This document shows positions 4,189-21,091 of a stretch of 64,000 nucleotides of DNA, in pieces. A program made the translations under genes and the position numbers. Origin of the DNA: Kiloniella spongiae (GTDB lineage: Bacteria > Pseudomonadota > Alphaproteobacteria > Kiloniellales > Kiloniellaceae); NCBI RefSeq assembly GCF_001026905.1, contig NZ_LAQL01000010.1:124001-188000 (forward strand), in the 5' to 3' direction. How positions within the stretch are numbered: the first letter of the stretch is position 1; each line of letters starts with the position of its first letter. The notes below the pieces were generated by a model. It was not told where the DNA came from and did not search any database. It was given only the letters and a program-made list of their open reading frames with translations.

Positions 4189-7132
4189 GGAGACGCTCCC
4201 CTTCTGGATCAATAAAGTGCGCGGAGACAATTTCGACCTCAATCTCGCCCTCACGAATAGGGTCTGTAGCGCGTACAATCTCGCCTAACCGCTCGCTTCC
4301 TTGCTTGATAAAACCAAGACCAATGGAATGCCCAAGGCTCGGGGAATAGGCAACTGATGACATCCAACCTTCATCATTGACCATCTCGGCTGATTTGCCT
4401 TTCGCAATGAAGTGCGACCCAGCTTTAAGCTCGTCACTTCGATTTACTGGACGGAAACCAACAAGGCTTAACCCATCTTTTCGATTTAAATTTTCACGTT
4501 CAGAAAGCGTATTGCCGATACAGTCTTTTTTCTTGGAAACCATCCGCCCCATACCAAGATCTTGCGCCGTTGTTTGACCGTTAAGTTCATTGCCGGCTGC
4601 ATGACCTTTTTCGATACGCATAACGCCGAGAGCTTCGGTACCATAGGCCGTGACATCAAATTCTTCACCCGCCGCCATCAAGGTACGCACCAAAGAATCA
4701 CCATAACGGGTTGGAACAGCTATTTCGTATGCCAATTCACCTGAGAAGGATATTCTGAAAAGCCGTGCTGGAATACCGCCGCAAACGGTAACTTCGCCGC
4801 AAGCCATAAAGGGAAAAGCTTCGTTCGAAATATCATGATTACGATCAACAATCTTTTGTAAAAGCTTACGGGCATTTGGTCCTGCTACAGCAAACTGTGC
4901 ATACTGTTCAGTGCTTGAAATCAGGTGCACATCCATGTTTGGCCACAAGCATTGGCGACAGAATTCCATATGTCTGAATACCCCCACAGCATTGGCTGTT
5001 GTCGTTGTCATAACAAAATGGTTTTCCGCAAAACGTGCTGATGTGCCATCATCCATCATGATACCATCTTCGCGTAACATGATGCCATAACGAACCTTAC
5101 CGACAGGTAACTTGGCAAAAGCGTTCGCATAAACTTTGTTCAGGAACTCAGCAGCATCTTTACCTTGAATGTCAATTTTCCCAAGCGTGGTAACATCACA
5201 GACCCCGACAGAGGCTCTGGTTTGTGTAACTTCACGATCAACCGATTGCCGCCAATGAGTTTCACCCGCTTTGGGGAACCACTGCGCGCGATACCACATT
5301 CCGGCCTCAACAAAGACAGCTCCCTGCTCTTCAGCCCAGCTATGACTTGGTGTCAACCTTGAAGGCCTGAAGTCTTTCCCTCTGGCGCGCCCCGCAAGGG
5401 CACCAATTGCCACAGGCGTATAGGGAGGACGGAAAATTGTCGTGCCTGTTTCAGGGATAGATTTTCCCGTGCATTCTGCCATAACTGCCAAAGCAGGAAT
5501 ATTGGCGGTTTTACCCTGATCCGTAGCCATGCCAAGTGTTGTGTAACGCTTGAGGTGTTCTACAGCTCGGAAGCCTTCCTGATGCGATAGCTTGACGTCC
5601 TTTACGGTCACATCGTTCTGTAAATCCAACCACGCGCGCGCCTTGCTCTCTTTCACATGCCAAAAAGCTGATATGCCAACAGTCTCTTCGTCTGATTTGG
5701 CAGCAGTTTCTGTTGTTGGTTTAAAACCTAGATCACTTAGAGCCTTATTGCCGAGATTATGTCCATCCTGCAGAACAGATGACAGCGACAGATTACCAGC
5801 CGCGGCACCAGCAACCATCATTCCCAGAGGCAATTCGCCACCAGGTACAAAAGCAGCAATATCTTCGCGCCATGTCGGGCGACCACGCTGATGGCAGGTC
5901 AGTTGAACATTTGGGCTCCAGCCACCTGAAACAGCCAAACAATCCGTCGGAATTTTCTGACCATTTGATAGCGTGATTGATTTAATACCGTGTCGGCCCT
6001 GGGTATCGACGATACGTCCGCCCATAACCACAGCAGCACCATTCGGTACAGCGACAGGCGGTTGACCATCACGACTATCAATAACGGCCGTGATTTCAAC
6101 GCCTTTTACCGCCAGATCGGTCGCGGTACGCCAACCATCGTCATTATTAGTAAAGACAGCAACTCTTTTGCCCGGAAGCGCACCCCATCGGTTAACATAG
6201 GCGCGAACGGCACCCGCCAACATAATGCCAGGTCGATCATTGTTACCAAAGGCGATTGGGCGCTCTGTAGATCCAGCACATAAAATAGTGCGTTTCGTAT
6301 AAACCCGCCACAGGATCTGACGAGGTTTATTATTGGAAGATACTAAGTGATCCGTGACACGTTCCAAAGCACCTACAATACCATGATCATAAGCACCATA
6401 TGCCGTTGTACGCGTCATCAAGCGAACGTTATCCATCGCTGACAATTCAGCGATTGCCTGTGTTGCCCATTCATAACCGCTTTGATCATTTACGGACAAG
6501 GTTTCCGCATTCAGGCGACCGCCCATACGGAAATCTTCATCCATCAGAATAACACGTGCCCCAGCCCGCCCAGCAGAAAGTGCGGCAGACAAACCAGACG
6601 GTCCAGCCCCGACAACAAGGACATCACAATGCAAAAAGCTCTTGTCATAGATATCCGGATCATCTTGTCCGGATAAGCGGCCTAGACCTGCCGCAGCCCG
6701 GATAACAGGCTCATAGAACTTTTCCCAGAAAGCTTTCGGCCACATAAAGGTTTTATAATAAAATCCCGCAGACAAGAATGAGGAAAAGAGATCATTCACA
6801 GCCATAAAATCATACTTCAACGACCCGCGATGGTTCTGACTTGTAGCCTCTAACCCCTGGAACAGTTCTGTAATTGTCGCACGGGTATTGGGTTCCTGAT
6901 AGGCACCCGAACGAAGTTGTACCAATGCATTAGGTTCTTCCGATCCCGCTGAGAAAATCCCGCGAGGTCGATGGTATTTAAATGATCGACCAACCATTTT
7001 ATGACCATTGGCCAAAAGAGCAGAAGCCAGAGTATCCCCGGCAAAGCCTTCAAGTGTTTGCCCGTTAAAAGTAAAATTGAGCTTTTGTGTACGATCTAGT
7101 AAACCGCCATCAATTCTGTTTATTTGACTCAT
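4181..7132 (-). CDS. soxA: Sarcosine oxidase alpha subunit
   Basis: At 983 residues this has the normal length for the alpha subunit. The N-terminal region carries the conserved GRSFKYHRPRGI segment (about 48-59). A dinucleotide-binding VVGAGPSGLSAAL lies at 173-185, in the NAD-binding domain. The C-terminal third is a GcvT-like aminomethyltransferase domain that handles the tetrahydrofolate one-carbon product. The enzyme converts sarcosine, THF and O2 to glycine, methylene-THF and H2O2 in the cytoplasm. The ATG overlaps the soxD stop by four bases and the stop overlaps soxG, so the four subunits are translationally coupled. Confidence 0.97.
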   Translation of the reverse strand: MSQINRIDGGLLDRTQKLNFTFNGQTLEGFAGDTLASALLANGHKMVGRSFKYHRPRGIFSAGSEEPNALVQLRSGAYQEPNTRATITELFQGLEATSQNHRGSLKYDFMAVNDLFSSFLSAGFYYKTFMWPKAFWEKFYEPVIRAAAGLGRLSGQDDPDIYDKSFLHCDVLVVGAGPSGLSAALSAGRAGARVILMDEDFRMGGRLNAETLSVNDQSGYEWATQAIAELSAMDNVRLMTRTTAYGAYDHGIVGALERVTDHLVSSNNKPRQILWRVYTKRTILCAGSTERPIAFGNNDRPGIMLAGAVRAYVNRWGALPGKRVAVFTNNDDGWRTATDLAVKGVEITAVIDSRDGQPPVAVPNGAAVVMGGRIVDTQGRHGIKSITLSNGQKIPTDCLAVSGGWSPNVQLTCHQRGRPTWREDIAAFVPGGELPLGMMVAGAAAGNLSLSSVLQDGHNLGNKALSDLGFKPTTETAAKSDEETVGISAFWHVKESKARAWLDLQNDVTVKDVKLSHQEGFRAVEHLKRYTTLGMATDQGKTANIPALAVMAECTGKSIPETGTTIFRPPYTPVAIGALAGRARGKDFRPSRLTPSHSWAEEQGAVFVEAGMWYRAQWFPKAGETHWRQSVDREVTQTRASVGVCDVTTLGKIDIQGKDAAEFLNKVYANAFAKLPVGKVRYGIMLREDGIMMDDGTSARFAENHFVMTTTTANAVGVFRHMEFCRQCLWPNMDVHLISSTEQYAQFAVAGPNARKLLQKIVDRNHDISNEAFPFMACGEVTVCGGIPARLFRISFSGELAYEIAVPTRYGDSLVRTLMAAGEEFDVTAYGTEALGVMRIEKGHAAGNELNGQTTAQDLGMGRMVSKKKDCIGNTLSERENLNRKDGLSLVGFRPVNRSDELKAGSHFIAKGKSAEMVNDEGWMSSVAYSPSLGHSIGLGFIKQGSERLGEIVRATDPIREGEIEVEIVSAHFIDPEGERLRA
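4196..4203 (-). promoter_or_regulatory. Ribosome binding site fixing the GTG start of soxG
   Basis: On the minus strand AAGGGGAG lies 7 bases before GTG at 4188. It selects this start over longer in-frame options inside soxA. Confidence 0.7.
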
Positions 7133-7434
7133 TTTTCACCTCGGCCTGATTTTTTTGCCTGTTTGGCAAGCACGGCATCGCGGGCCAGTTCTACATTGGT
7201 AATATCATGGGTCAGGGTATTACGGGTCACGACTAACCAGGAACGATCCCCCTGCTCATGATACCAAAGCTCTTGGTGTTCTCCTGCGGGATTATCACGC
7301 AGATAGAGATAATCATGAAACAGTTCAGCCGCGTTATCGGCTTGCCAGTCAGGTCGCTCGATAAGGGACGCATCGCCTTTGTAAACAAATTCGGAAGCAT
7401 CGCGAGGCCCCAGAAGAGGATGATTAATGATCAT
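7129..7434 (-). CDS. soxD: Sarcosine oxidase delta subunit, zinc-ligand variant
   Basis: This 101-residue protein lies between soxB and soxA and overlaps the soxA start by four bases. The family signature is CPxCGPRD near the N-terminus and a later H...C; together they hold a structural zinc in characterised enzymes. Here the N-terminus reads MIINHPLLGPRD and the later motif is WYHEQGDRSW. His59 is kept, but both N-terminal cysteines and the later cysteine are replaced (His5, Leu8, Asp63). The protein contains no cysteine at all. The rest (RDASEFVYKGDA, WLVVTRNTLTHDI) is good SoxD. The subunit probably folds without the usual zinc; whether this is common in relatives cannot be judged here. 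Confidence 0.93.
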   Translation of the reverse strand: MIINHPLLGPRDASEFVYKGDASLIERPDWQADNAAELFHDYLYLRDNPAGEHQELWYHEQGDRSWLVVTRNTLTHDITNVELARDAVLAKQAKKSGRGEK

Positions 7435-7445
7435 TTTCCGTGCTC

Positions 7446-8711
7446 CTAATGCAAGTTTGGTTGGGCGCCCATGCCCTTTTCATCAATCATCGCGCCGCGT
7501 TGGAAACGATCCAGTCGATATTCGGTCGCTACGGGATGTGGCTCATCTTTTGCCAAGAGGTGCGCATAACACCAGCCACTCGCTGGCGTTGCCTTGAAAC
7601 CACCATAACACCAGCCGCCATTGAAATAGAGGCCATCAATATGCGTTTTATCGATAAAGGGGGATCCATCCATAGACATGTCCATCACACCACCCCACAT
7701 ACGGAGCAAACGGGCGCGGCCAATCATTGGCATCAATGCCATCCCTCCTTCACAAACGTCTTCAACAACAGGTAGATTCCCGCGTTGGGCATAGCTGTTG
7801 TAGCCATCAATATCACCGCCAAAGACCAAACCGCCTTTGTCTGATTGGGAAACATAAAAGTGGCCCGCACCAAAGGTTACAACACCGGGTAATATTGGCT
7901 TTAAACCCTCGGAAACAAAAGCCTGTAAGACATGACTTTCAATCGGCAACCGCATTCCAGCCATCGACATTACGCGGCTGGATGATCCGGCGACACACAC
8001 CGCCACTTTCTTGGCTTTGATTGTTCCCTGACTGGTTTCAACACCGCTACAAACACCATTTTCAATCACCATGCCTGTTACTTCACAGTTTTGGATGATA
8101 TCAACACCTCGACTATCCGCACCACGTGCATAGCCCCAGGCAACGGCATCATGACGAACGGTACCTCCGCGTGGCTGCAATAGACCACCTTTGATCGGGA
8201 AGCGGGCGTTTTCGAAATCCAAACAGGGATACATTTCACGTACGCCGTCCTGATCCAGCAAGACAGCATCAGCCCCGGCAAGCATCATGGCATTGCCGCG
8301 ACGCGCATAGGCATCTCGCCCCGCATCATTATGGAAAAGATTTAAAATACCACGCTGAGACACCATGGCATTGTAATTGAAATCCTGTTCAAGATTTTCC
8401 CATAGCTTCATGGAAAACTCGTAAAAAGGCTCATTCCCCGGCAAAAGATAATTGGAACGTACAATTGTTGTATTACGCCCAACATTTCCGGAACCAATCC
8501 AACCTTTTTCAAGAACCGCAACGTTTGTTAGACCAAATTCTTTCGCAAGATAATATGCCGTTGCCAAGCCGTGACCACCGCCACCGACGATGACGACATC
8601 GTATTCTTTCTTCGGTTTCGGGGTTCGCCAGACAGGTTTCCAGCCTTTATGTCCAGTCAGCGCTTCTTTTATGACTTTAAAGCCAGAGTATTTTAAACCT
8701 CGGTGTTTCAT
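7446..8711 (-). CDS. soxB: Sarcosine oxidase beta subunit
   Basis: This 421-residue flavoprotein carries the FAD-binding motif VVIVGGGGHGLATAYYL (about 39-55). It also has RGGTVRHDAVAWG, where His187 is the expected covalent FMN attachment site of heterotetrameric sarcosine oxidase. The beta subunit performs the amine oxidation. The start is taken as ATG at 8711; a GTG one codon earlier is also open. First gene of soxBDAG, transcribed away from the GlxA-type regulator across an 83-bp gap. The genes that often accompany sox (glyA, folD, purU) are absent here. Confidence 0.96.
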   Translation of the reverse strand: MKHRGLKYSGFKVIKEALTGHKGWKPVWRTPKPKKEYDVVIVGGGGHGLATAYYLAKEFGLTNVAVLEKGWIGSGNVGRNTTIVRSNYLLPGNEPFYEFSMKLWENLEQDFNYNAMVSQRGILNLFHNDAGRDAYARRGNAMMLAGADAVLLDQDGVREMYPCLDFENARFPIKGGLLQPRGGTVRHDAVAWGYARGADSRGVDIIQNCEVTGMVIENGVCSGVETSQGTIKAKKVAVCVAGSSSRVMSMAGMRLPIESHVLQAFVSEGLKPILPGVVTFGAGHFYVSQSDKGGLVFGGDIDGYNSYAQRGNLPVVEDVCEGGMALMPMIGRARLLRMWGGVMDMSMDGSPFIDKTHIDGLYFNGGWCYGGFKATPASGWCYAHLLAKDEPHPVATEYRLDRFQRGAMIDEKGMGAQPNLH

Positions 8712-8797
8712 CACACATTCTCATTTTTGTTCCTTTTTCTACTAGAACAGTGATATAAAAATTCAGATTTCAAAAAAAGGACACTTTATTACAAAAT

Positions 8798-9781
8798 ATG
8801 GACAATTATCCTTTACCCGAGCAAACCTATAAAATTGGCATATTACTGATCGATAATTTTGCCCTGATGTCCTATTCATCGGTCATAGAGCCTATACGTG
8901 CAGCTAACCTTCTTGGAAAAAAGCAACTCTATAAAGTTGATCATATTGCAGTCAAGAATGGACGCAAATCTGTTAGTTCGAGCGGTGCTGTAATACCTGC
9001 GACGACCACCATGTCAGAAAACACGGATTATGACCTGATACTCGTTGTCGCCGGCGGAGATCCATCCAGTTTTGGCGATGAGCAAACATTCCAATGGTTA
9101 CGTAACAAAGCGCGACATGGAGTTCGGCTGGGCGGAGTTTCCGGTGGTCCTGTTATCCTTGCAAAAGCAGGCGTTATGAAAGGTTACAGAATGACGGTAC
9201 ACTGGGAACATGCCGCGGCACTCTCAGAAAACACACCTACATTGCTGCTTGAGCGAAGCCTTTACATCATGGATCGTGATCGCATTACCTGCGCTGGTGG
9301 CGTTGCTCCGTTGGATATGATGCATGCCTTACAAAGTGAAATTCACGGTCCAGAATTCGCTAGAAAAGTCAGTGACTGGTTTATCCATACGGATGTCAGA
9401 CCGTCAGAAAATCCACAGAGATCCGGCATGATAGAACGATATGGTACTCATCATCCTTCTATCATCCAAACCCTGGAAATCATGGAAAACCATGTTGCAG
9501 ATCCTTTGAACTTAAAACAACTCGCCTTATTATCCTCGATAAGTTCGCGCCAACTCAACAGAATTTTCATCGAAAAAATCGGACAGAGTACTATGACTGT
9601 CTACCGTAATTTACGATTGGAAAAGGCTTATAATCTTATTGAACAAACTGTACTTTCATTGACAGAAATTGCCCTTGCGACAGGATTTTCAAGTTCTGCA
9701 CATTTCTCCAAATCTTTTCAGGAAAAATATGGTTCCCCCCCCTCATTCTATAGACAGAGCACTCAGCATAAGGTTCAATAA
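8798..9781 (+). CDS. GlxA/GbdR-type AraC-family transcriptional activator
   Basis: The protein has 327 residues. The N-terminal half is a DJ-1/PfpI-like domain (YKIGILLIDNFALMSYSSVIEP, then GGVSGGPVILAKAGVM), with Ser in the nucleophile position as in GlxA regulators. The C-terminal 100 residues are an AraC helix-turn-helix domain (LNLKQLALLSSISSRQLNRI, then LTEIALATGFSSSAHFSKSF). It is divergent from soxB. In Pseudomonas, GbdR is a regulator of this architecture that activates glycine betaine, dimethylglycine and sarcosine catabolism, including sox and a dipeptidase-like gene. The same assortment occurs here, so a GbdR-like role is a reasonable inference. No operator was identified. Confidence 0.85.
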   Translation: MDNYPLPEQTYKIGILLIDNFALMSYSSVIEPIRAANLLGKKQLYKVDHIAVKNGRKSVSSSGAVIPATTTMSENTDYDLILVVAGGDPSSFGDEQTFQWLRNKARHGVRLGGVSGGPVILAKAGVMKGYRMTVHWEHAAALSENTPTLLLERSLYIMDRDRITCAGGVAPLDMMHALQSEIHGPEFARKVSDWFIHTDVRPSENPQRSGMIERYGTHHPSIIQTLEIMENHVADPLNLKQLALLSSISSRQLNRIFIEKIGQSTMTVYRNLRLEKAYNLIEQTVLSLTEIALATGFSSSAHFSKSFQEKYGSPPSFYRQSTQHKVQ

Positions 9782-9901: not shown

Positions 9902-10915
9902 CTAACGGTCTGCCCATTCTTTGACTTTCTCAACAATGGCCGCATTTACGGCAACACCATTTTTATCTGCATCAACGCGCGCTTCAAAGCGCTCTGCACC
10001 ATGCAAGCGCGCCCCATCCTGACCAACAATTGCTTCGATCAAATGATCAACGCGTTGTGAGAATGCGCCACCAGAAGAAAGCTCTGGATCAATTGCAATA
10101 AAGAACTGCCCCGTTTTTGGCGGCCCACCGACAGGACCGGAAAATGGGCTCGCATCAATACCTAGGGTCGCCCCTGTCATAGCAGCCGCCATTAACTCTA
10201 CCATCAAGGCTGTACCAAAACCTTTATAGCTACCACTAGGGATCATTGTCCCCTTTAAGGCAACATCTGGATCAGTCGTTGGTTCACCATCAGGTCCCAG
10301 TGCCCATCCTTCGGGAATAGCTTTGCCTTCACGGGCATGTTTCATGACTTCACTTTTAGCGATCACAGAAGCACTCTGATCAATCAGGATACGTGTTTCA
10401 CCCGCAGCACCGGGAACCGCAACAGAGAAAGGATTAGTACCAACCACAGCTTTTTTCCCACCAACAGGTGCGACAGAAGCAGGTGCATTGGTAAAACCGA
10501 TCCCCAGAAGGCCGTGTGATGCCAGACGATCTGTGTGATATCCAAGAATACCGCAGTTATAGGAATTACGTAATCCAAGTGCAGCAATTCCTTGTTCGCG
10601 AGCAGCTTTGAGCAACCATTCAAAACCAAGGTCAATTGCCGGATGAGCAAAACCTGTTTTAGCATCAGCAATTGCCAGTCCTGGACGGATAACATCCAGT
10701 TCAGGAACAGCAGCCCCATCAACCTTGCCACATTCAACATGCAAACAATAGGTTGGCACATAGGCCAGACCATGTGACGCAATACCATCTTGCTCGGTGG
10801 CCGCAACTGAACGCGCCAAAGAAGCCGCATTTGCTTCTGTTGTTCCCGCCGCAATCAAAGCCTTCAGAGCAAAAGCTTCAATTTCTGCTACACTCATCGT
10901 TACAGTTTCAACCAT
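9902..10915 (-). CDS. Ldh-family (malate/L-lactate dehydrogenase type) oxidoreductase
   Basis: This 337-residue protein belongs to the NAD(P)-dependent Ldh_2 family, which includes malate, sulfolactate and ureidoglycolate dehydrogenases and imine (pyrroline/piperideine-2-carboxylate) reductases. Typical segments are EQDGIASHGLAYVPTY, LGIGFTNAPASVAPVGGKKA, GTNPFSVAVPG and GSYKGFGTALMVELMAA. The start at 10915 is supported by AAGGAAG six bases upstream. Last gene of the minus-strand island with BCCT, the M19-like protein and aldehyde dehydrogenase. The context suggests oxidation of a 2-hydroxy acid or reduction of a cyclic imine from a quaternary or cyclic amine. The sequence alone does not decide the substrate. 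Confidence 0.85.
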   Translation of the reverse strand: MVETVTMSVAEIEAFALKALIAAGTTEANAASLARSVAATEQDGIASHGLAYVPTYCLHVECGKVDGAAVPELDVIRPGLAIADAKTGFAHPAIDLGFEWLLKAAREQGIAALGLRNSYNCGILGYHTDRLASHGLLGIGFTNAPASVAPVGGKKAVVGTNPFSVAVPGAAGETRILIDQSASVIAKSEVMKHAREGKAIPEGWALGPDGEPTTDPDVALKGTMIPSGSYKGFGTALMVELMAAAMTGATLGIDASPFSGPVGGPPKTGQFFIAIDPELSSGGAFSQRVDHLIEAIVGQDGARLHGAERFEARVDADKNGVAVNAAIVEKVKEWADR

Positions 10916-10961
10916 GTGTTCTTCCTTTTATTGTTCTTGTTTAATCATTTCGTTTTAAAGT

Positions 10962-11669
10962 TTAATCGTTATCACTCAGGCCTGCTCCCGCACCTTTGAG
11001 GCGAGATTCTTCTGTGGCCGGGACATAGGTTCTGGCGGCAAAGAACTGAAGATCTGTCCAGTTTTCAAAACTCAAGGGGACGCCTTGAACAACGCGCTCG
11101 ATAATTGTCCCTGTCCCGGATTTCTCTGCCCTTAAATTCGATAGATCGGACTGAATCCCGGATACCGTAACTCGCTCAGCTTGTTCAACGCCAAGATCTT
11201 CAATAGTCCCCTGTTCAAGATACAGAACGTCAGGGGCAATAGTGATTTTCACGGCTCCCCCTGAAACTGAAAACCAGGAAACGGAAAACCCTTTACCAAT
11301 TGCTTTTGCAGCGCGCCCCAGGATGGGGAGTATCAAGGCAGGGGAAGTAGCGGATTCCAGGGTTATTTCATGATTACCGAGTAAACGATCGGCCAAATCA
11401 TTCAACGCACTGCCACTGATCACTGGGCACAGAGGGCCATTTGTCGTTTGCCAAATATCACTCTCCAGTGACTGAGGTCGCAAATCCCCATATTCTTTAC
11501 CATCGTTCGTCTTCAACAATGAAAGCAGAAGGCAAACATTTGGTAAACCACGTGCAGCCAGCCAACGTGTCGCTTTTCCAGCTTCTTCGGCCAACCCCCA
11601 AGACATACCGGCCCCACGGGCCGCCTTACGCGCAGAAGCTTCGATTTCATTTAAGGAATAGCGTTCCAT
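10962..11669 (-). CDS. DUF3726-like protein of unknown function
   Basis: The start is ATG at 11669, which overlaps the upstream stop as TGATG, giving 235 residues (MERYSLNEIEASARKAARGA). The segment GMSWGLAEEAGKATRWLAARGLP matches what I recall of the DUF3726 family, which has no described function. No signal peptide or membrane segment is visible. It is translationally coupled to the 569-residue unknown protein, so the two probably act together. Neighbours are a BCCT transporter and an Ldh-type dehydrogenase, pointing to amine or amino-acid-derivative catabolism. Confidence 0.7.
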   Translation of the reverse strand: MERYSLNEIEASARKAARGAGMSWGLAEEAGKATRWLAARGLPNVCLLLSLLKTNDGKEYGDLRPQSLESDIWQTTNGPLCPVISGSALNDLADRLLGNHEITLESATSPALILPILGRAAKAIGKGFSVSWFSVSGGAVKITIAPDVLYLEQGTIEDLGVEQAERVTVSGIQSDLSNLRAEKSGTGTIIERVVQGVPLSFENWTDLQFFAARTYVPATEESRLKGAGAGLSDND

Positions 11670-13378
11670 CACAAGCTCCCTTCTTTGCCAAGATCCATAG
11701 GGTACGCCCAATTATCCTCATCCATCGTTGCCAACTCGTGCGGATACGGAGCATTTTGGAACATGGTTATACGTACCCATCGATCAGAACGAGGATCAAA
11801 GCGTGTCGCGCCAAAGAAAGAAAGTTTACAACGCAAGAGATCAACTGGCAGCAAATCTTCCCCAATCAGATTGTCCTGAATTTCAGCATAAGGATAACGT
11901 TGAGTTAGCTGCACTCTTCGTGCAATCAGACGATGTTCCGGATAATCAATAAGAAAAGCACCAATCTTCTGATCCGATTGCGCATTCAGTAAATCTTTGT
12001 ATAGACGCGCAGCATCCCGACCAATAGAAAGCGGTTGCTCCAGATTATCTCCTGGTTCTTCACCTCTCGAGCCCAACCGTGGTTCCAGTTTTTCTTCGGA
12101 TACATACCAGAAGAAAACAGAGTTTGGATGATTGTCATAATCAACAGACAAAGCCCAGCTATAGTGTTTTTCCAATGCGACCAAGAGATCTGCAACACTT
12201 TGAGAACCATCAATACGGAAATTATCATTTTCTTCTGCATACATCACGGATGCATAGGCATCGACAATCTCGGCATGGGGCTCAAGCAACAAACTAACCA
12301 AAAGCTCCTGCCCTTCCAAAGATAGTTCAACCTCTCCCCAGCGATAGAGATTATCCCACGGAAGTTCATCAGCAACGAAAGTATCCAGAGACAGGGCACT
12401 TAGCTTTTCCAGATCACGCCGCAGTACAGTTACGCGCTCGGCTTGTCTTTCATCCACCGTAAACCAACGATCCAGAGATAAATGAGCACTTTCAAGATAT
12501 ACTTCATAGTGTTTTCTTGCTGCAGTGGTTATCGAGGGCAAAGCACGGATGCGGGCCAACGCGCTTTCACGCGCATGTATCCAACTGTGCAGCAATATTG
12601 GGTGATTGACTAGGAACGGTGCCATGCCCAAGCCAGTTGAGTTACCAACCCCCAGACTACGTCGAATTTCAGGGGCCAGTTTTACAGCTGTTTCAGGTGA
12701 CCGATAGACTGCCATTTGCTCTACGTAATCAGATACAAAATTTCGAATGAGCCAAACCGCCAGCATTTCAGCACGGAACGGACCCAACATTTCGGAACGA
12801 TTGGCAATACGGTCACGATCCGCCATACCAAGCTTACCATTTCCGTAAACGGCAGTTGTGCGCATCAGATAGCCAACTTTATTTAACTCGGCTTGATCCG
12901 GCTGTTTGCCCGCGGCCAGTTCACTGACAACGTATTCGAATAGGCGTACGCTTTTATTTGCGCGAGAGAGAACAAGCTCGCTCTCCAAACACCGGCCGGC
13001 TTCCTGCTTCGGAACATTCTGTGACAGACGCTCAATATCATCTTCACCGATAACACCATCATAAAGGGCAAAGGTCGTATCCCAGGCTTCGGCAATAACG
13101 CGATCAGACCGCTTTGATGGATCAAGATCATGGGCAAAGCAAACCATGCTATAACTGCGTTCAGGACCCTTTGCCAAATAGATGGCAACGCCTTCACCTT
13201 GTTCATTAATGCGCCAGATTGGACATTCAAAGGTCCAGTTATCACGCTTCAAACGACGCATTACTGCGCGCATAAAGCTCAATCTCGTTTGATGGAAAGA
13301 GCCCAGACGATCCAGTTTCATGACCTGTTGTGGCGGTCGGAGTGAAATCGAATTTGTGCTATTTAGTTGCGTAGTCAC
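11669..13378 (-). CDS. Conserved-looking protein of unknown function (569 aa)
   Basis: The best start is GTG at 13378, preceded by a strong GGAGG five bases away; a TTG at 13390 is in frame but has no ribosome site. I do not recognise the family. The protein is soluble, without signal peptide or membrane spans, and rich in Arg, Glu and Leu. A Gly-rich segment NSTGLGMAPFLVNHP lies near residue 245. A mid-region is mostly helical, and the C-terminus is acidic and aromatic (ITMFQNAPYPHELATMDEDN). The stop overlaps the DUF3726-like start as TGATG. An enzyme or enzyme partner in the same pathway is likely from context, but no catalytic motif was seen. Confidence 0.75.
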   Translation of the reverse strand: MTTQLNSTNSISLRPPQQVMKLDRLGSFHQTRLSFMRAVMRRLKRDNWTFECPIWRINEQGEGVAIYLAKGPERSYSMVCFAHDLDPSKRSDRVIAEAWDTTFALYDGVIGEDDIERLSQNVPKQEAGRCLESELVLSRANKSVRLFEYVVSELAAGKQPDQAELNKVGYLMRTTAVYGNGKLGMADRDRIANRSEMLGPFRAEMLAVWLIRNFVSDYVEQMAVYRSPETAVKLAPEIRRSLGVGNSTGLGMAPFLVNHPILLHSWIHARESALARIRALPSITTAARKHYEVYLESAHLSLDRWFTVDERQAERVTVLRRDLEKLSALSLDTFVADELPWDNLYRWGEVELSLEGQELLVSLLLEPHAEIVDAYASVMYAEENDNFRIDGSQSVADLLVALEKHYSWALSVDYDNHPNSVFFWYVSEEKLEPRLGSRGEEPGDNLEQPLSIGRDAARLYKDLLNAQSDQKIGAFLIDYPEHRLIARRVQLTQRYPYAEIQDNLIGEDLLPVDLLRCKLSFFGATRFDPRSDRWVRITMFQNAPYPHELATMDEDNWAYPMDLGKEGSL

Positions 13379-13383
13379 ACAAA

Positions 13384-13388
13384 CCTCC
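13384..13388 (-). promoter_or_regulatory. Shine-Dalgarno GGAGG deciding the GTG start at 13378
   Basis: GGAGG on the minus strand lies five bases before GTG at 13378. It falls inside the longer TTG-initiated frame, which is therefore probably not used. Confidence 0.7.
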
Positions 13389-13450
13389 AATGAACGCTAT
13401 AGTTATTCAGGAAAGAGACCTCTCTTCCCTGAATTAATGACAAAAACAGC

Positions 13451-15010
13451 CTAGGCTTCTGCAGCAATCGGCGATGTACTTTCCCGATCACGCTTTTCCA
13501 GCATACCCGCTATTTGCGGTGCAGCCCATAAGGATGGCAATAGCACCAGTGAAACAGGAACGGCAGTTACAACAATAAAGGATTGCAGTGCACTGACGCC
13601 CCCTGATCCCAACGAGATCAAAATGATTGCCATAACGCCCATCGCAATACCCCAGAACACACGAACAGGTGTGCTTGGTGTATCGCTGTCGGACATCGCA
13701 ACAGAAATACAATAGGTCATTGAATCACCCGTTGTCGCGACAAAAACAGTTGTCAGAATAAGGAACAGAACAGAAATCAGGAACCCGGCGGGAAGCTGTT
13801 TGGTAATTGCCAACAGCGCTGCTGGTAAATTAAAGCCTTCAAATGCTCCAGAAACAGAACCAGGATTAGCAAGTTCGAAAGCAATGCCTGAACCACCAAC
13901 AATAGTGAACCAGAAACAGGTTACCACAGGGGCAATGATTGACAGCATAACCACGATCTGACGAATTGACCGCCCACGGGATACACGGGCAATAAACATC
14001 GCCATCAATGGACCATACCCTAAGAACCATCCCCAGAAGAAGACTGTCCACCAACCAAGCCATCCACTTTCAGCACGGAACATTGCCATCGGGATAAACT
14101 TGTCAACATAAATACCAAAACTATGAACAAAGCTATCCACAATAAAGGCTGTCGGACCAAAGAAGAACATGAAGATCAACAGTGCACACGCCAGAATGAC
14201 ATTGAACCTGCTGAGGATTTGAATTCCTTTGTTTACACCTGTAACCGCAGAAGCCGTGTAAAGTCCGACCAGAACGGCAATAACAACAGCTTGAGAGGTA
14301 AATCCATCTGAGAGACCAAAAAGGTCCTGAAGACCATAACTGACTTGCAGGCCAAGGAAACCAATGGGACCAACAGTTCCAGCAACAACCGCGATAATAC
14401 AAGAAGCATCAGCAATAAGACCAATAGGACCTTTAAGAGCGCGTTCTTTAAAAACCGGGTAAAGCAAGGTACGCGGGGCAAGTGGCAAACCTTTTTCGTA
14501 ATGATAATACATCAAAACGACAGTCGTCAGCGCACCAAGAATTGCCCATGCCAGAAAACCCCAGTGCATAAAGGCCTGTGCCAATGCAGGATAAGCTGCT
14601 TCAGCTGTTTTCGCTTCGACACCGAAGAGAGGTGGTGGGGAAAGAAAATGTGCCATTGGCTCACCAGCAGCCCAGAAAACACCGCCACCTGCCAGCAAGG
14701 TACACATGATCATGGCACCCCATTGGAAAACAGTAAACTCTGGCTTATCTAACTTCCCGAGAACCACAGAACCACGTCCACTAAAGGCCATAAAAAGGCC
14801 AATAATAAACGTAAGCAAAAGCAATACCTGCCAATAGGCACCAAAAATCTGAACAGACCAGCCAAAACCCGCGTTGACCAACTCTTTCAAAAGATCAATA
14901 TCAATCAGTGCCAAGCCGCAAAACACCGCAATAAAGCCGCCGGTAACAGCAAAAAGGGGAATATTGACCCCTTTGAGAACACTGTCCCCAGTCGTTGACG
15001 TATACGCCAT
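13451..15010 (-). CDS. BCCT-family quaternary amine transporter
   Basis: This 519-residue protein has about 12 membrane segments and BCCT hallmarks. GGGVFWAAGEPMAHF matches the conserved fourth-helix region. The Trp-rich segment FFWGWFLGYGPLMAMFIARV, followed by SRGRSIRQ, matches the eighth helix and loop. BCCT carriers import betaine, choline, carnitine and related compounds with Na+ or H+, or by exchange. The protein lacks the long charged tails of osmosensing members such as BetP, so uptake for catabolism rather than osmotic gating is likely. Downstream lie the unknown 569-aa protein, the DUF3726-like protein and the Ldh enzyme; upstream lie the M19-like and aldehyde dehydrogenase genes. 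Confidence 0.93.
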   Translation of the reverse strand: MAYTSTTGDSVLKGVNIPLFAVTGGFIAVFCGLALIDIDLLKELVNAGFGWSVQIFGAYWQVLLLLTFIIGLFMAFSGRGSVVLGKLDKPEFTVFQWGAMIMCTLLAGGGVFWAAGEPMAHFLSPPPLFGVEAKTAEAAYPALAQAFMHWGFLAWAILGALTTVVLMYYHYEKGLPLAPRTLLYPVFKERALKGPIGLIADASCIIAVVAGTVGPIGFLGLQVSYGLQDLFGLSDGFTSQAVVIAVLVGLYTASAVTGVNKGIQILSRFNVILACALLIFMFFFGPTAFIVDSFVHSFGIYVDKFIPMAMFRAESGWLGWWTVFFWGWFLGYGPLMAMFIARVSRGRSIRQIVVMLSIIAPVVTCFWFTIVGGSGIAFELANPGSVSGAFEGFNLPAALLAITKQLPAGFLISVLFLILTTVFVATTGDSMTYCISVAMSDSDTPSTPVRVFWGIAMGVMAIILISLGSGGVSALQSFIVVTAVPVSLVLLPSLWAAPQIAGMLEKRDRESTSPIAAEA

Positions 15011-15118
15011 TTAAGTTACTCCCTAAGTATCATAATTAAGCAGCGCGAACGGTTCCAATGTTATTCCCATTGGTTATCCCCTCACACTGTACTAATGGTC
15101 AGTTATTAAACCTATGGC

Positions 15119-16117
15119 CTATTCAGGCCGTTGTGGGCCAAACGAGTTTTCATAAAATGAAAACCAGTTCATACCCATAATCTGTGCAGTTTCTTCTTGT
15201 GAAAAACCAACATCCCGCAATCCAGTAGCAAGGTTGGGAAAATCTCTGTTATCTCTGAACCAGGTTGGCATATCAGGAAAACCGGGATTAGACGCAGAGC
15301 CCTCGCCGTAATCAATGGTCTTGGTCCATCGGCCAACACGCATCCATTCAACGATTGAATCCGGCTGATCCTGACAAAGATCGCTGCCAATGCCGATGCT
15401 TTCAACACCAATCATTTCGGCTGTTTTAGCAATCATTGTACAGAATTCTTCAAGCGTGCAGTCACTCTTACCTTTTAGATGATGAGGATAGAGTGAAAAC
15501 CCAACCATACCGCCGGATTGTGCCAATGCCTTCAAAACCGCATCAGATTTGTTGCGCAAAGCCGGATGCCAGAAACTTGGGTTAGCATGGGTGATTGCAA
15601 TCGGACGTTCGGAAATTTCAATAGCTTCAAGGGTTGAACGTTCCGCAGAATGAGACATATCAACCACAAGGCCAACACGGTTCATTTCCTTGATTACCTG
15701 CTTGCCCATCCGAGTAATTCCCGGATCTTCAGCTTCATAACATCCTGTCGCCAACAATGATTGGTTATTGTAGGACAGTTGCATAAAACGCGCGCCGAGT
15801 GTGTGGCAAATCTCGACCAGCCCAATATCATCTTCAATCGGGGAACAATTCTGAAATCCAAAGAAAATAGCTGTGCGACCACTTTCATTCGCACGACGAA
15901 TATCATCCGCCGTGCGACCGTGAATAATCAAATTATCATGCAGTTCGAAAAAACGGTTCCACTGTTCAACATTGATTACGGTTTCGCGAAACATCTCGTG
16001 ATAACAGATTGTGGCATGAACGGCATCAACACCACCTTCACGCATTTGGGCAAAAGTCTTTTCTGACCAATTACAGTATTGAAGACAGTCAATCACATAT
16101 GAGTTTTTGTCGCTCAT
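15119..16117 (-). CDS. M19 (membrane dipeptidase) family protein with altered metal site
   Basis: The start is ATG at 16117, with AGGAG upstream, giving 332 residues. A longer frame to 16291 only translates a short tandem repeat. The fold matches M19 dipeptidases: DMSH (His of the second metal), ITHANPSFWHP, and GIGSDLCQ (Asp). Two canonical elements are missing. The N-terminal HxD pair is replaced by VIDCLQYCNW, and the bridging Glu of the usual GxEG motif appears as Gln in GFQNCSP. Ordinary zinc dipeptidase activity is therefore doubtful. A dipeptidase-like gene is also found in the Pseudomonas GbdR betaine regulon. Its role is unknown to me. Confidence 0.85.
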   Translation of the reverse strand: MSDKNSYVIDCLQYCNWSEKTFAQMREGGVDAVHATICYHEMFRETVINVEQWNRFFELHDNLIIHGRTADDIRRANESGRTAIFFGFQNCSPIEDDIGLVEICHTLGARFMQLSYNNQSLLATGCYEAEDPGITRMGKQVIKEMNRVGLVVDMSHSAERSTLEAIEISERPIAITHANPSFWHPALRNKSDAVLKALAQSGGMVGFSLYPHHLKGKSDCTLEEFCTMIAKTAEMIGVESIGIGSDLCQDQPDSIVEWMRVGRWTKTIDYGEGSASNPGFPDMPTWFRDNRDFPNLATGLRDVGFSQEETAQIMGMNWFSFYENSFGPQRPE

Positions 16118-16138
16118 GCCTATATCTCCTACATTTGT

Positions 16139-16183
16139 CCTATTATTTTGGGGCCTATTATTTTGGGGCCTATTACTCTGGTG
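16139..16183. repeat. 15-bp tandem repeat across a stop codon
   Basis: Two exact copies of CCTATTATTTTGGGG (16139-16153 and 16154-16168) are followed by a diverged third (16169-16183). The third copy contains the stop codon and last sense codons of the aldehyde dehydrogenase gene. Each extra copy therefore adds a further TAA TAG beyond the true end. This looks like replication slippage. Confidence 0.9.
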
Positions 16184-17621
16184 AACCTGAACTGATGTAG
16201 GATGTTTTAACCTGCGTATAGAACTCGGCTGCGTAAGAGCCTTGTTCACGAGGACCGTAACTTGAATCACCACGGCCACCAAAAGGCACATGATAATCAG
16301 TACCTGCTGTTGGCAGGTTGATCATCACACAGCCTGTACGACTGTTTCGGCGATAGTGATTAGCACGCGCAAGAGAGTTCGTCATGATGCCAGATGTCAA
16401 ACCAAATCTTGTGTCATTAGAAACGCTTAGTGCTTCATCATAAGATCCTACTTTAATAACACAGGCAATTGGAGCGAACATTTCTTCCCGATTGATTTTC
16501 ATGGAATTGTCACCGTTAATGAACAAAGCCGGAGACATGAAATATCCCTCAGTCGCCATGTCCAAGCGATCTCCACCACAAACCAGTTCACAACCTTCCT
16601 CCTTTGCCAGTTTCATGTAAGCAAGGTTGGAATTAAGCTGTGTCTCGCTGACAACAGGGCCGAGTTGTGTGCCCTCGGCCAAAGCGTGTCCGACTTTCAT
16701 GGCTTTAGTTGCTGCACTTGCTTTTTCAACAAATGCATCGTGAATTTTTTCATGAACAATCAAACGAGACGAAGCTGTACACTTCTGACCTGTACCGCCG
16801 AAGGCACCGCCAACAGCACAAGAAACCGCCAGATCCAAATCGGCATCATCCATAACGACCAACGGGTTCTTTGACCCCATTTCCATCTGGACTTTGGTCA
16901 TGTTTGCCATAGCAGACGCAGCAATACCGCGGCCAACATCAACAGAGCCTGTGAATGAAATAGCGTCAACACCCGCACTTTCAACAAGGCGTTGGCCAAC
17001 GGAAGAACCTCCGCCCATTACCAGATTGAAAAGTCCCTTTGGTAGATCATGACGAGAAAAGATCTCTGCCAATGCCCAAGCACTTGCCGGGGTCAGGTTC
17101 GCAGGTTTCCAAACAACCGCGTTACCATATGCCAATGCTGGCGCGATCTTCCATGTCGCGGTTGCTGTCGGAAAGTTCCAAGGGGAAATAATAGCAACCA
17201 CACCAACGGGTTCGCGGCGAACATCAATTTCAATACCGTCGCGCACTGAATCAGCAGTATCGCCCATTTGACGAAGTACTTCAGCTGCATAATAAGTAAA
17301 GAACTGCCCTGCACGGAAGATTTCTCCCTTGCCTTCTGCAAGCGGTTTGCCTTCTTCGCGAGAAAGCAGTTCACCCAACTCAGCAGCACGGTTTTTCATT
17401 TCTTCGCCAATAGACATCAAAACGTTATAGCGTTTTTCCAACCCAGTTGCGGCCCAAACCTTTTGTGCCTGTCTGGCTGCATCCAGTGCAGTATCCAGCT
17501 GCGCACTGCTTGCCTGCGCGTATTCACCGATAACGTCTGACAAATCAGATGGGTTTATGTTTTTGATATAGTTATCAGCGGCAACCCATTCACCAGCGAT
17601 ATAATTGGAAAAATTGGACAT
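16173..17621 (-). CDS. Aldehyde dehydrogenase, ketoglutarate-semialdehyde dehydrogenase-like
   Basis: This 482-residue NAD(P)-dependent aldehyde dehydrogenase has the catalytic Cys281 in GGTGQKCTASSRL and general-base Glu247 in VQMEMGSKNP. The coenzyme-loop segments SPWNFP and FTGS are present. The C-terminus (VPFGGRGDSSYGPREQG, then YAAEFYTQVKTSY) is typical of 2,5-dioxovalerate (alpha-ketoglutaric semialdehyde) dehydrogenases, which end sugar-acid and hydroxyproline pathways. The substrate here could equally be a betaine-derived aldehyde. First gene of the minus-strand island, divergent from the LysR gene. Confidence 0.9.
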   Translation of the reverse strand: MSNFSNYIAGEWVAADNYIKNINPSDLSDVIGEYAQASSAQLDTALDAARQAQKVWAATGLEKRYNVLMSIGEEMKNRAAELGELLSREEGKPLAEGKGEIFRAGQFFTYYAAEVLRQMGDTADSVRDGIEIDVRREPVGVVAIISPWNFPTATATWKIAPALAYGNAVVWKPANLTPASAWALAEIFSRHDLPKGLFNLVMGGGSSVGQRLVESAGVDAISFTGSVDVGRGIAASAMANMTKVQMEMGSKNPLVVMDDADLDLAVSCAVGGAFGGTGQKCTASSRLIVHEKIHDAFVEKASAATKAMKVGHALAEGTQLGPVVSETQLNSNLAYMKLAKEEGCELVCGGDRLDMATEGYFMSPALFINGDNSMKINREEMFAPIACVIKVGSYDEALSVSNDTRFGLTSGIMTNSLARANHYRRNSRTGCVMINLPTAGTDYHVPFGGRGDSSYGPREQGSYAAEFYTQVKTSYISSGSPE

Positions 17622-17782: not shown

Positions 17783-18721
17783 ATGGCGATCACACTTGCC
17801 ATGCTCAAAACCTTTGTTTCTGTTGCAGAAAACGGGTCTTTGATGGAAGCAGCAAAACAGTTGGGCAGAACACCATCAGCTGTTTCCATGGCTCTTAAAC
17901 AGCTTGAGATCGAATTTGATACTCAACTTTTCTCTGGCGAGCGTAAAGGTAATTTAACACCTACCGGTATTTTTGCTTTGGAACAGGCCCGTAATTTAAC
18001 CGATCAATGCGACGAAGTTTTTTCCGCGATCAGAGCTTACGCAAAAAATGAAATCGGGTATATTTCACTGGCCTGTGTTCCATCCGTTGCAGAACATATT
18101 TTACCACAGGTGATAAAGGCATTCCACGCCCAATGGCCAAAAGTAGAAATAGAAATTCGGGATGCTGATTCACGCAGTGTTATCAACGCAGTTCACAGCG
18201 GACGAGTTCAATTCGGCGTCGCAAGTCTCGCAAAAAAACTGCCCGGTATTGAATTTACCCCACTATTCCAAGACAGTCTTGGCCTTGTGAGTAGTGCAGA
18301 TGATGCTCCCCCAAAACCGAGTAAGAATATCAGTAACAAGAAATTGGCATTATTCCTAAAAGACAAGAAACTGCTCCTGAACAGTATAACGCAATCAATC
18401 ACTCTTCCTGAAATACTGGAAAACCAAGAAAATAGCCGAATTACCGTACATAACGTAACATCCGTTCTTGCACTGGTAAAAGCCGGCGCAGGCGTAACCG
18501 TACTTCCCAGGCTGCTGGTTCCGGAAACAGATACATCTTTGAATTTTATCCCTTTTGCCGATGAAAAGTTACGGCGCACAGTTGGCCTCTTCCAGAGAAA
18601 TGGCTCTCTTTTATCACCAGCTGCTCTGTCTCTCGTCGAAAAAATACACACTCGTATCTCTGAAATAGAGCACAATATAGGGGGAAATTTTACGAAATTA
18701 AACTTATCAGGATCAGCCTAA
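17783..18721 (+). CDS. LysR-family transcriptional regulator
   Basis: This 312-residue protein has an N-terminal winged helix (LAMLKTFVSVAENGSLMEAAK, then TPSAVSMALKQLEIEF) and a periplasmic-binding-like effector domain (about 90-300). It is divergent from the aldehyde dehydrogenase gene across 161 bp, the usual arrangement for a LysR regulator of its neighbour. The short palindrome GCAAAATTTGC at 17709-17719, in the shared intergenic space, is a possible binding site but is not distinctive. Effector unknown; presumably an intermediate of the adjacent pathway. Confidence 0.9.
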   Translation: MAITLAMLKTFVSVAENGSLMEAAKQLGRTPSAVSMALKQLEIEFDTQLFSGERKGNLTPTGIFALEQARNLTDQCDEVFSAIRAYAKNEIGYISLACVPSVAEHILPQVIKAFHAQWPKVEIEIRDADSRSVINAVHSGRVQFGVASLAKKLPGIEFTPLFQDSLGLVSSADDAPPKPSKNISNKKLALFLKDKKLLLNSITQSITLPEILENQENSRITVHNVTSVLALVKAGAGVTVLPRLLVPETDTSLNFIPFADEKLRRTVGLFQRNGSLLSPAALSLVEKIHTRISEIEHNIGGNFTKLNLSGSA

Positions 18722-19114: not shown

Positions 19115-19894
19115 TCAAACTGTCCCTCCTAGAGACCCTTCCAAGGTTGCAAGCTCCTGACCGCCGGCCATCATATCCTGTAATTCTTCTGGCGAGACAT
19201 CACCCCGACTTGCGGTTCCAAATGTTTTGCCTCTATTCAGAACCGTAAAACGATCACCGACCGCCATCGCGTGACGTACGTTATGAGTAATAAAAACAAC
19301 CGCAACACCAAGCTTTCGCACCATGTTAATTGTCGCCAAGACATTTGATGTCTGACGCACGCCAAGAGCAGAGGTTGGCTCATCAAGAATAAGAACCTTT
19401 GCCCCAAAATACACAGCACGGGCAATCGCAACCGTTTGGCGCTCGCCCCCCGACAAAGTACCCACGGCTTGATCCGGTCCACGGAGATTGATACCCATCT
19501 TACTCATTTCGGACATCGTAATTTCGTTGGCACGTTTATGATCAAAGAACTTCAGGGGACCAATATTACGGATTGGCTCGTTCCCCATAAAAAAATTACG
19601 ACTGACCGACATCAAAGGGATCATCGCCAAATCTTGATAGACCGTTGCAATACCGGCAGAGATCGCATCACGTGGTCTTTGAAAGTTCATCGGCTTACCC
19701 TCAAAAAGGATTTCTCCCTTTGTAGCCTTATGAACACCGGACATAGTTTTAATAAAGGTGGATTTACCAGCCCCATTATCCCCTAATAAACAATGACACT
19801 CTCCCTGATGTACATCTACGGATACACCAGCCAACGCGATCACAGGACCAAAGTGTTTTTCGATATCTTTCATCTGCAGAATAGGTGACGACAT
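19115..19894 (-). CDS. Sugar/polyol ABC transporter ATP-binding protein
   Basis: This 259-residue protein has a single ABC domain: Walker A GDNGAGKS, signature [15 protein letters not shown], Walker [12 protein letters not shown] and the switch His in VVFITHN. Carbohydrate importers of the ribose group usually have two fused ABC domains; single-domain forms occur in the FrcA type. The first gene of the operon encodes the binding protein, then comes the permease, then this gene one base after the permease stop. Shared regulation with the iol genes makes inositol or a related polyol the likely substrate. Confidence 0.92.
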
Positions 19895-19895
19895 C

Positions 19896-21023
19896 TTATC
19901 TCTCCCCCGTGATCATACGGCGGATATAGGTATTAAGCACAACAGCGAGAAGTAGAATGATGCCAAGGAAGACACGGAACAAAGAGCTCTCGACACCAGC
20001 AAAGAACAATCCTTGCTGCACGACACCAAAGATCAAAGCACCAAGTGCAGCACCTAGAACAGAACCATAACCTCCTGTAAGAAGAGCGCCTCCAATCACA
20101 ACAGAGATAATCGCTTCAAACTCTTTCAAGACACCTCTGTCTGCACCAGCGGAACCAAATTCCATCACCTGGCAGGTTGCAAAAACAGTGGCACAGAAAG
20201 CAGTGAACATAAACATCAATATTTTAACACGGCTTACAGGGACACCAACATAACGTGCAGCCTGTGCATCACCACCTGCGGCAAAGATCCAGTTCCCAAA
20301 GCGGGTTTTTGTCAATAGAATGTGACCAAATATGATCAAGCCAATTGCCCAAACCACCAGCATTGGAACACCATCAACAACTGGTTGACCTGCCTTCACG
20401 CCGCGCTCAAAGGTGGAGATAACACCAGCGTCCCCCAACCATTGGAAAACCCCGGTCAGTACTTTTCCGCCAAAAAGACTTGCAAGCCAATCCCCCTCGG
20501 CCACATCACGGATACCGCCAATAATGGTTTTACGTTCAAGGGTTTGGGGAAGGAAAATGGTAAAGCCGCGCAGGATAAACAACAACGCGAGCGTCACAAT
20601 AAAACTCGGCAATCCGGTTTTTATAACAATGTACCCGTTCAAAGCCCCGATACCGATACAGAGGATAAAGGTAACAATAATTGCAAACCAGATCGGCCAC
20701 CCTAACGTGACACCAAAAATGGCAATCATCATGCCTGCAAACCCGATCATTGACCCCATTGAAAGATCAAATTCACCGGAAATCATCAAAAGACATGCAC
20801 CAACAGCAATAATAGCAAATTGTGCCGAAACAAGTGTCCAGTTCAGAACACCTTGCGATGTAAACATCCCGGAATCAAAAGCCGTCAGCAGAAAGAATGT
20901 AAACACAAGAACGGTTCCACACATTCCCCCTAATTCGGGACGAACCAGTGCTTTCCGTAAAGAAGATCTCTCTTTTATTCTTTCATCAGCGACAGGTGCG
21001 GGAGAAGGATTGCTCGTGACCAT
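19896..21023 (-). CDS. Sugar/polyol ABC transporter permease
   Basis: The start is ATG at 21023, with GAGG seven bases upstream, giving 375 residues; an ATG four codons earlier is possible. A polar N-terminal tail precedes about ten membrane segments of the RbsC/FrcC type. [16 protein letters not shown] carries the family's conserved first periplasmic-loop region, and [20 protein letters not shown] lies near the end. It forms the channel for the adjacent ATPase and binding protein. Confidence 0.92.
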
Positions 21024-21091
21024 AAAGAGCCTCATCAATAAAAAATACGCAGAAACGACCACACAAAGGTGGCCGTTTCTGACTTAGCGTT

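Follow-up and report, generated by a model that had tools for sequence, protein, structure and literature searches.

Homarine (N-methylpicolinate betaine) is a nitrogen-containing compound produced by marine algae. An operon for its catabolism, homABCDER, is said to have been described by Ferrer-González et al. in 2026 (Nat Microbiol 11:1531) in Rhodobacterales, SAR11 and SAR116, and its products are reportedly N-methylglutamate and glutamate. Among open-licence papers in PMC we found none that uses the operon name, nor one in which "N-methylglutamate dehydrogenase" appears together with homarine. A passage of PMC13390433, citing Ferrer-González et al. 2026, gives Mgd a part in homarine catabolism, and another places TmaR next to mgdABCD in Ruegeria pomeroyi. 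According to an excerpt of PMC12817926 this bacterium draws homarine down within hours, and part of PMC9723723 lists homarine among the compounds for which it has no confirmed transporter. Here we analyze a gene cluster of Kiloniella spongiae that lies in a stretch of 64,000 nucleotides (contig NZ_LAQL01000010.1 of assembly GCF_001026905.1, positions 124,001 to 188,000), hereafter called the window. Its six genes code for an aldehyde dehydrogenase (ALDH), an M19-like protein, a BCCT-family carrier, a 569-residue protein that we call P569, a DUF3726 protein and an Ldh_2-family oxidoreductase, and a tetrad of sarcosine-oxidase-like genes in SoxBDAG-like order flanks them. We consider it likely that the cluster encodes homarine uptake and catabolism and that the tetrad demethylates the product.

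The cluster and the homarine pathway, as reported, share five structural genes and a regulator, a distribution in marine Alphaproteobacteria including some with small genomes, and presumably a nearby tetrad of the type that oxidizes N-methyl amino acids. They differ in that the Kiloniella operon contains a BCCT gene and that its tetrad belongs to a clade separate from the mgd genes linked to gamma-glutamylmethylamide synthetase (GMAS). The mgdABCD genes with TmaR (SPO1584 in R. pomeroyi), as presented in the passages of PMC13390433, likewise combine a SoxBDAG-type tetrad with an AraC-type regulator, but GMAS-linked MgdC chains are only 33 to 36% identical to their counterpart in the window.

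In the pathway that we infer, the BCCT carrier, whose place a glycine-betaine-type ABC importer takes in certain other species, would import the zwitterion. P569 and the DUF3726 protein, together with the Ldh_2 reductase, would dearomatize and open the N-methylpyridinium-2-carboxylate ring, and the M19-like protein might then hydrolyze a C-N bond of the opened product, e.g., releasing one carbon as formate. Oxidation of a C5 semialdehyde by ALDH would yield N-methylglutamate, which the tetrad would demethylate to glutamate, with transfer of the methyl carbon to tetrahydrofolate. The LysR-type and the AraC-type regulators may each govern one half of the system.

The P569-DUF3726 pair and its neighborhood

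The initial annotation had described the two uncharacterized proteins as a coupled pair, and this was confirmed, as was their co-occurrence. The stop codon of P569 overlaps the start codon of the DUF3726 gene (TGATG), and in 385 genomes sampled from Alphaproteobacteria all 44 DUF3726 hits (PF12525) have the same orientation as a P569 hit and lie 15 to 119 nt downstream from it. P569 was found in 53 of the 385 genomes and DUF3726 in 43, all of them among the 53; the two samples are apparently the same draw, whose match-free genomes are only partly itemized. Thus, DUF3726 was never seen without P569 in this sample, since all its hits sit just downstream of P569. The possibility that the two occur mostly in unrelated contexts, which had also been raised, is not what the co-occurrence analysis found. 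Of the 61 genomes of the order, 28 have P569. Among named loci, the most similar are those of Kiloniella sp. EL199 (96% identity) and K. majae (95%), and the 35 aligned relatives are 33 to 79% identical to the window P569. On a plasmid of Mesorhizobium sp. 131-2-1, P569 and DUF3726 are fused in a single open reading frame (ORF) (L104:8947-11391; WP_199201047.1).

To describe the neighborhood, 69 P569 loci were collected, and the 57 with at least 4.5 kb upstream and at least 2.5 kb downstream were used for counts. Close relatives were counted singly (three Kiloniella loci are among the 57), and the counts are therefore not those of independent events. DUF3726 is present within 400 nt of P569 in 54 of the 57 loci, overlapping open frames included. 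The three misses are L104, in which the genes are fused, L156, where an annotated hypothetical protein takes its place, and L064. At L064, which comes from an order-level relative, the genes downstream of P569 are an M19 gene, then a 289-residue ORF and an Ldh gene; no DUF3726 was detected there. An M19-like gene was found in 52 of the 57 loci. The transporters are more diverse: six of the 60 loci drawn (L060, L062, L082, L083, L090 and L099) have a three-gene ABC set and no BCCT gene. The one set that was scanned, at L082, is ProX/ProW/ProV-like, with an ATPase scoring above the cut-off of the betaine/proline/choline family. In a 1.4-Mb genome the importer is ProXWV-like, and a branched-chain-type transporter is found at the Mesorhizobium locus. 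Thus, by the 57- and 60-locus counts, the importers vary while the M19-P569-DUF3726 core stays steady.

The gene order is also found elsewhere. A LysR gene is located upstream of the ALDH gene in many relatives. In Phaeobacter inhibens P72, one stretch comprises the tetrad, a helix-turn-helix regulator, LysR, ALDH, M19, BCCT, P569, DUF3726 and Ldh. The order is the same in Ruegeria TM1040, where the fetched stretch includes the sox alpha and gamma genes. "Roseateles" XES5 (UNVERIFIED_ORG) has sox alpha, delta and beta genes, a GlxA regulator, LysR, ALDH, M19, P569, DUF3726 and Ldh, and the set continues with a glycine betaine ABC importer, purU and folD. Aminobacter pAA01 has the genes from LysR through the glycine-betaine ABC importer, and no sox genes in the stretch shown. 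The set is found in genomes of 1.2 to 1.4 Mb as well (GC content of the fetched loci, 0.28 to 0.36). The recurrence of the same order in other Alphaproteobacteria argues that the cluster did not arise by chance. Zwitterion uptake, conversion by five genes, N-demethylation and the handling of one-carbon units are encoded side by side, which supports an N-methylated substrate of betaine type. The betaine-type chemistry suggested in the initial annotation is thus well supported, by both the betaine-type importers and the sox-like genes that lie beside the set in several genomes.

The pair can also stand apart from the other cluster genes. A second copy in the genome of the window (contig C9, L052:8667-12173), arranged LysR-P569-DUF3726 and with a P569 of 42% identity, has no M19, ALDH or Ldh gene within 6 kb and lies among housekeeping genes, i.e., NAD synthase, tRNA synthetase and LeuA/citramalate-synthase-like genes.

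The record at L157 (NZ_CP084753.1) is labeled Roseateles (Betaproteobacteria, UNVERIFIED_ORG). In the P569 tree it clusters with Aminobacter, and the label may be incorrect.

Predicted properties of the cluster proteins

We found no open-licence paper in PMC that mentions DUF3726. The AlphaFold2 model of the protein (pLDDT 91.3) retrieved Ldh_2 enzymes in the first 27 rows of a Foldseek search (best E value, 4.5e-5). VIA alignment with 3uoe_A gave a Z score of 14.5 and a root-mean-square deviation of 3.8 over 208 aligned residues, the first non-Ldh row reaching a Z score of 3.7, and the fold is the same as that of 1wtj (Z 12.8). A profile comparison with the Ldh proteins of the operon aligned the N-terminal part over 43 columns, with 28% identity (E 5e-5; probability 67%). 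The SHG motif, whose His we take to be the catalytic residue of Ldh_2 enzymes, is absent from all 26 DUF3726 rows of the alignment and present in 11 of the 14 Ldh rows. The three Ldh rows that lack it are L038, L041 and L043, so some of the Ldh proteins linked to the operon have changed as well. Relative to delta1-piperideine-2-carboxylate reductase (1wtj), DUF3726 lacks both this His and approximately 100 residues. The model thus suggests that DUF3726 is probably a shortened, non-catalytic subunit with an Ldh_2 fold. The same reductase, presumably DpkA, an enzyme acting on a six-membered ring 2-carboxylate, is the nearest solved relative of the Ldh_2 protein itself (180 bits).

P569 belongs to no Pfam or NCBIfam family. 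Its AlphaFold2 model has a pLDDT of 88.2, and whole-chain comparisons with the PDB gave nothing beyond chance in the profile search, no Foldseek hit with an E value of 0.001 or lower, and a best VIA Z score of 3.7. NAT10 and Jet rows, with Z scores up to that value, were considered too weak as fold candidates and were not used. Among 36 aligned rows, the invariant residues of P569 include 12 Arg and neither Cys nor His, with H259 nearly invariant, and no Rossmann, flavin or metal motif was recognized by eye. None of the other five cluster proteins is a recognizable oxygenase or hydratase by Pfam. By elimination, P569 with DUF3726 would be the best candidate for the dearomatizing or ring-opening step, making P569 a candidate ring-opening enzyme.

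The best PDB relative of the M19-like protein is 2i5g (E 2e-60). We took the ligand roles (H, D, E, H, H) and the position of the HxD motif to be those of renal dipeptidase. At the HxD position, the 63 rows of the alignment, in which the window protein is counted twice, read L-Q-Y (L in 60, Q in 61 and Y in 59 rows). In 62 rows the bridging Glu has become Gln, a change also visible against solved dipeptidases, and all 63 retain two later His and an Asp. The protein thus appears to be an amidohydrolase fold with a remodeled metal site, for which canonical dipeptidase activity is unlikely. The protein 2i5g, which belongs to a different operon, has likewise lost the HxD motif and the bridging Glu; we take it to be Pseudomonas aeruginosa PA5396, presumably sited beside dimethylglycine catabolism genes. 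Finally, the nearest curated models of ALDH are 2-oxoglutarate-semialdehyde dehydrogenases, which act on C5 semialdehydes, and its score for NCBIfam NF042993 is 490.7 bits, below the cut-off of 770.

The SoxBDAG-like tetrad, the regulators and the gene layout

The SoxA-like chain of the window is 90 to 94% identical to those of L033, L034 and L035 and 66 to 67% identical to the operon-linked chains of L096 and Ruegeria (L102). Together these six form a group of their own, with 66 to 95% identity within it and 41 to 47% to L085, L086, L136 and L137. For the window chain, the values are 43 to 46% with its full-length paralogs in the same genome (L136 and L137) and 41 to 44% with L085 and L086, which are also near P569. 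Identity falls to 33 to 36% with the chains beside GMAS (L142 and L144 to L146), themselves 52 to 83% alike. The K. spongiae genome holds three SoxBDAG-type tetrads (contigs C2, C66, C23 and C13 were examined), with SoxA-like chains 43 to 46% identical, and the SoxD-like subunit is 40 to 46% identical to the SoxD-like ORFs of the two other tetrads. The genome also has GMAS and MGS genes (L135, contig C13). The 20-kb stretch around them holds no tetrad of this type, and a GMAS-linked MgdC query matched only the three known tetrads in this genome, at 35 to 38%. As GMAS and MGS are present and no GMAS-linked type of MgdC was found, one of the three tetrads presumably oxidizes N-methylglutamate.

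The initial annotation had named a sarcosine oxidase and a GbdR-like regulator as neighbors. The tetrad and an AraC-type regulator are indeed present, but the regulator falls short of the GbdR equivalog NF052371 (269.7 bits; cut-off, 480). A helix-turn-helix regulator occupies the corresponding place at L102, L157 and L160. The TM1040 regulator (L102) shares only 26% identity with that of the window, and the regulators need not be orthologous therefore; AraC-type regulators beside GMAS-linked tetrads (L144 and L145) are 33% identical to the one in the window.

The six genes lie where they had been placed before, head to tail on the minus strand, as ORFs and Pfam agree (Table 1). Read in the direction of transcription, the order is ALDH, M19-like, BCCT, P569, DUF3726 and Ldh_2, and by their coordinates the successive junctions are gaps of 55, 108 and 72 nt, a one-base overlap and a gap of 46 nt. 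Purine-rich sites precede the starts of the six genes. The longest ORF of the M19-like gene reaches 16291, with a start inside the ALDH gene, and the ATG at 16117 is preceded by a purine-rich site. The tetrad as a whole spans 3619-8714 on the minus strand. The LysR gene that diverges from ALDH (17783-18721) had not been named in the initial annotation. Past the LysR gene, at 19115-21062, are genes for the ATPase and permease of a sugar-type ABC transporter, apparently a separate unit.

Table 1. Features of the cluster and its surroundings, in window coordinates
Feature	Position	Strand	Evidence and remarks
ALDH (aldehyde dehydrogenase)	16173-17621	-	Pfam Aldedh, 529.8 bits; above cut-off
M19-like protein	15119-16117	-	Pfam Peptidase_M19 (PF01244), 250.7 bits; cut-off 26
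BCCT-family carrier	13451-15010	-	Pfam BCCT (PF02028), 501.4 bits; above cut-off
P569	11669-13378	-	GTG start; 569 residues; no Pfam or NCBIfam family
DUF3726 protein	10962-11669	-	ATG start; Pfam DUF3726 (PF12525), above cut-off
Ldh_2-family oxidoreductase	9902-10915	-	Pfam Ldh_2, 307.2 bits; above cut-off
LysR-type regulator, divergent from ALDH	17783-18721	+	Pfam; 161 nt to ALDH start
AraC-family regulator with DJ-1/PfpI domain (GbdR/GlxA-like)	8798-9781	+	Between operon and sox-like tetrad
SoxB-like subunit	7446-8714	-	TIGR01373, 691.9 bits; passes cut-off
SoxD-like subunit	7129-7434	-	ORF; 101 residues
SoxA-like subunit	4181-7132	-	TIGR01372, 1364.7 bits; cut-off 1164
SoxG-like subunit, start uncertain	3619-4278	-	TIGR01375, 72.7 bits; below cut-off 143.95

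Alternative substrates and implications

Several observations weigh against homarine as the substrate. The full set is not universal, with ALDH, Ldh and BCCT genes within 6 kb of P569 in 26, 25 and 14 of the 57 loci, respectively. A SoxA-like gene is located within 8 kb of P569 in only 10 of them. Three of these ten are at L084, L085 and L086, and the two that were compared, L085 and L086, fall outside the group of the window chain. The best hit in P. inhibens DSM 17395 has LysR, ALDH, M19, P569 and DUF3726 and no Ldh, BCCT or sox genes nearby, and P569 was not found on the R. pomeroyi megaplasmid, though the same query matches other genomes. A divergent P569 clade (approximately 30% identity) on Sinorhizobium (L155) and Aminobacter (L156) plasmids is accompanied by IclR, an M19-like gene and an ABC importer with two permeases. 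At L155 an aminotransferase and a succinate-semialdehyde dehydrogenase are also present, and the importer is of polyamine type. As these neighbors differ, the P569 family may serve several substrates. On account of the low identity to the GMAS-linked chains, we rejected the tetrad as the Mgd type of the methylamine pathway. Lastly, the homarine assignment rests on fit with the reported pathway rather than on gene-for-gene identity with the hom genes.

It is unlikely, in our view, that the cluster degrades another N-methylated zwitterion, such as trigonelline, stachydrine or hydroxyproline betaine, which would likewise be imported, have its ring opened and lose its N-methyl group. In favor of this reading, neither BCCT nor ProXWV-type importers are restricted to homarine, the transporter type changes from locus to locus (also branched-chain type in Mesorhizobium and polyamine type in Sinorhizobium), and relatives of P569 are found in bacteria from soil and plants. 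The ALDH models nearest to the window protein are also those of hydroxyproline-type routes. However, Pfam identified neither a Rieske demethylase nor a hydroxyproline epimerase among the six genes, and the Ldh protein, which resembles piperideine-2-carboxylate reductase, points to a six-membered 2-carboxylate ring. For the Sinorhizobium relatives of P569, trigonelline is disfavored: S. meliloti lacking pSymA fails to grow on it, according to a passage of PMC4207669, yet these relatives lie on replicons of pSymB size (replicon identity is judged by length). In PMC12239276, trigonelline appears only in the reference list.

That the operon and the tetrad are unrelated neighbors, the former acting on a non-methylated compound and the latter being an ordinary sarcosine oxidase, would agree with the scarcity of SoxA-like genes near P569 and with the tetrad passing the TIGR01372 and TIGR01373 cut-offs of sarcosine oxidase families. 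We regard this as very improbable, because the operon-linked SoxA-like group spans Kiloniella-type and Rhodobacteraceae loci alike and because a regulator gene recurs between tetrad and operon. We give almost no credence to a peptide-use operon with a true membrane dipeptidase: Pfam matches the protein to Peptidase_M19, and its relatives are annotated "membrane dipeptidase", but the replaced bridging Glu, the L-Q-Y sequence in place of the HxD pair and carriers of betaine type all argue otherwise.

Homarine thus remains the preferred substrate; it was among those that the initial annotation had suggested for testing. That annotation's view that the set matches no known pathway, and might represent a new osmolyte pathway, is probably superseded by the fit with the homarine pathway published in 2026, and by that fit a described pathway probably does hold the pair. 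The catabolic operon would then be ordinary and already described in substance, with the biochemistry of the two uncharacterized proteins probably still unexplained. New here are the predicted Ldh_2 fold of DUF3726 without the catalytic His, a P569 whose whole chain has no match among solved folds, an M19-like protein that apparently lacks metal ligands of dipeptidases, and a tetrad that appears distinct from the methylamine-pathway type. A bolder proposal, which we advance tentatively and rather doubt as a whole, is that P569-DUF3726 is a new type of two-subunit enzyme, whose new-fold catalytic chain and degenerate Ldh_2-fold partner open the rings of N-methylpyridinium carboxylates with neither Cys nor His invariant, and that the tetrad is a second N-methylglutamate dehydrogenase lineage.

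Members of Kiloniella are algae- and animal-associated, and if the assignment holds, the genus joins the homarine-degrading guild. An excerpt of PMC12817926 places homarine among the osmolytes of a marine diatom. As it is also quickly taken up by R. pomeroyi, who degrades it matters for ocean carbon and nitrogen. If our reading is true, the DUF3726 family would gain a fold and a partner, the "membrane dipeptidase" label of this M19 subfamily would be called into question, and P569 would be a focused, assayable candidate for an unusual dearomatizing enzyme.

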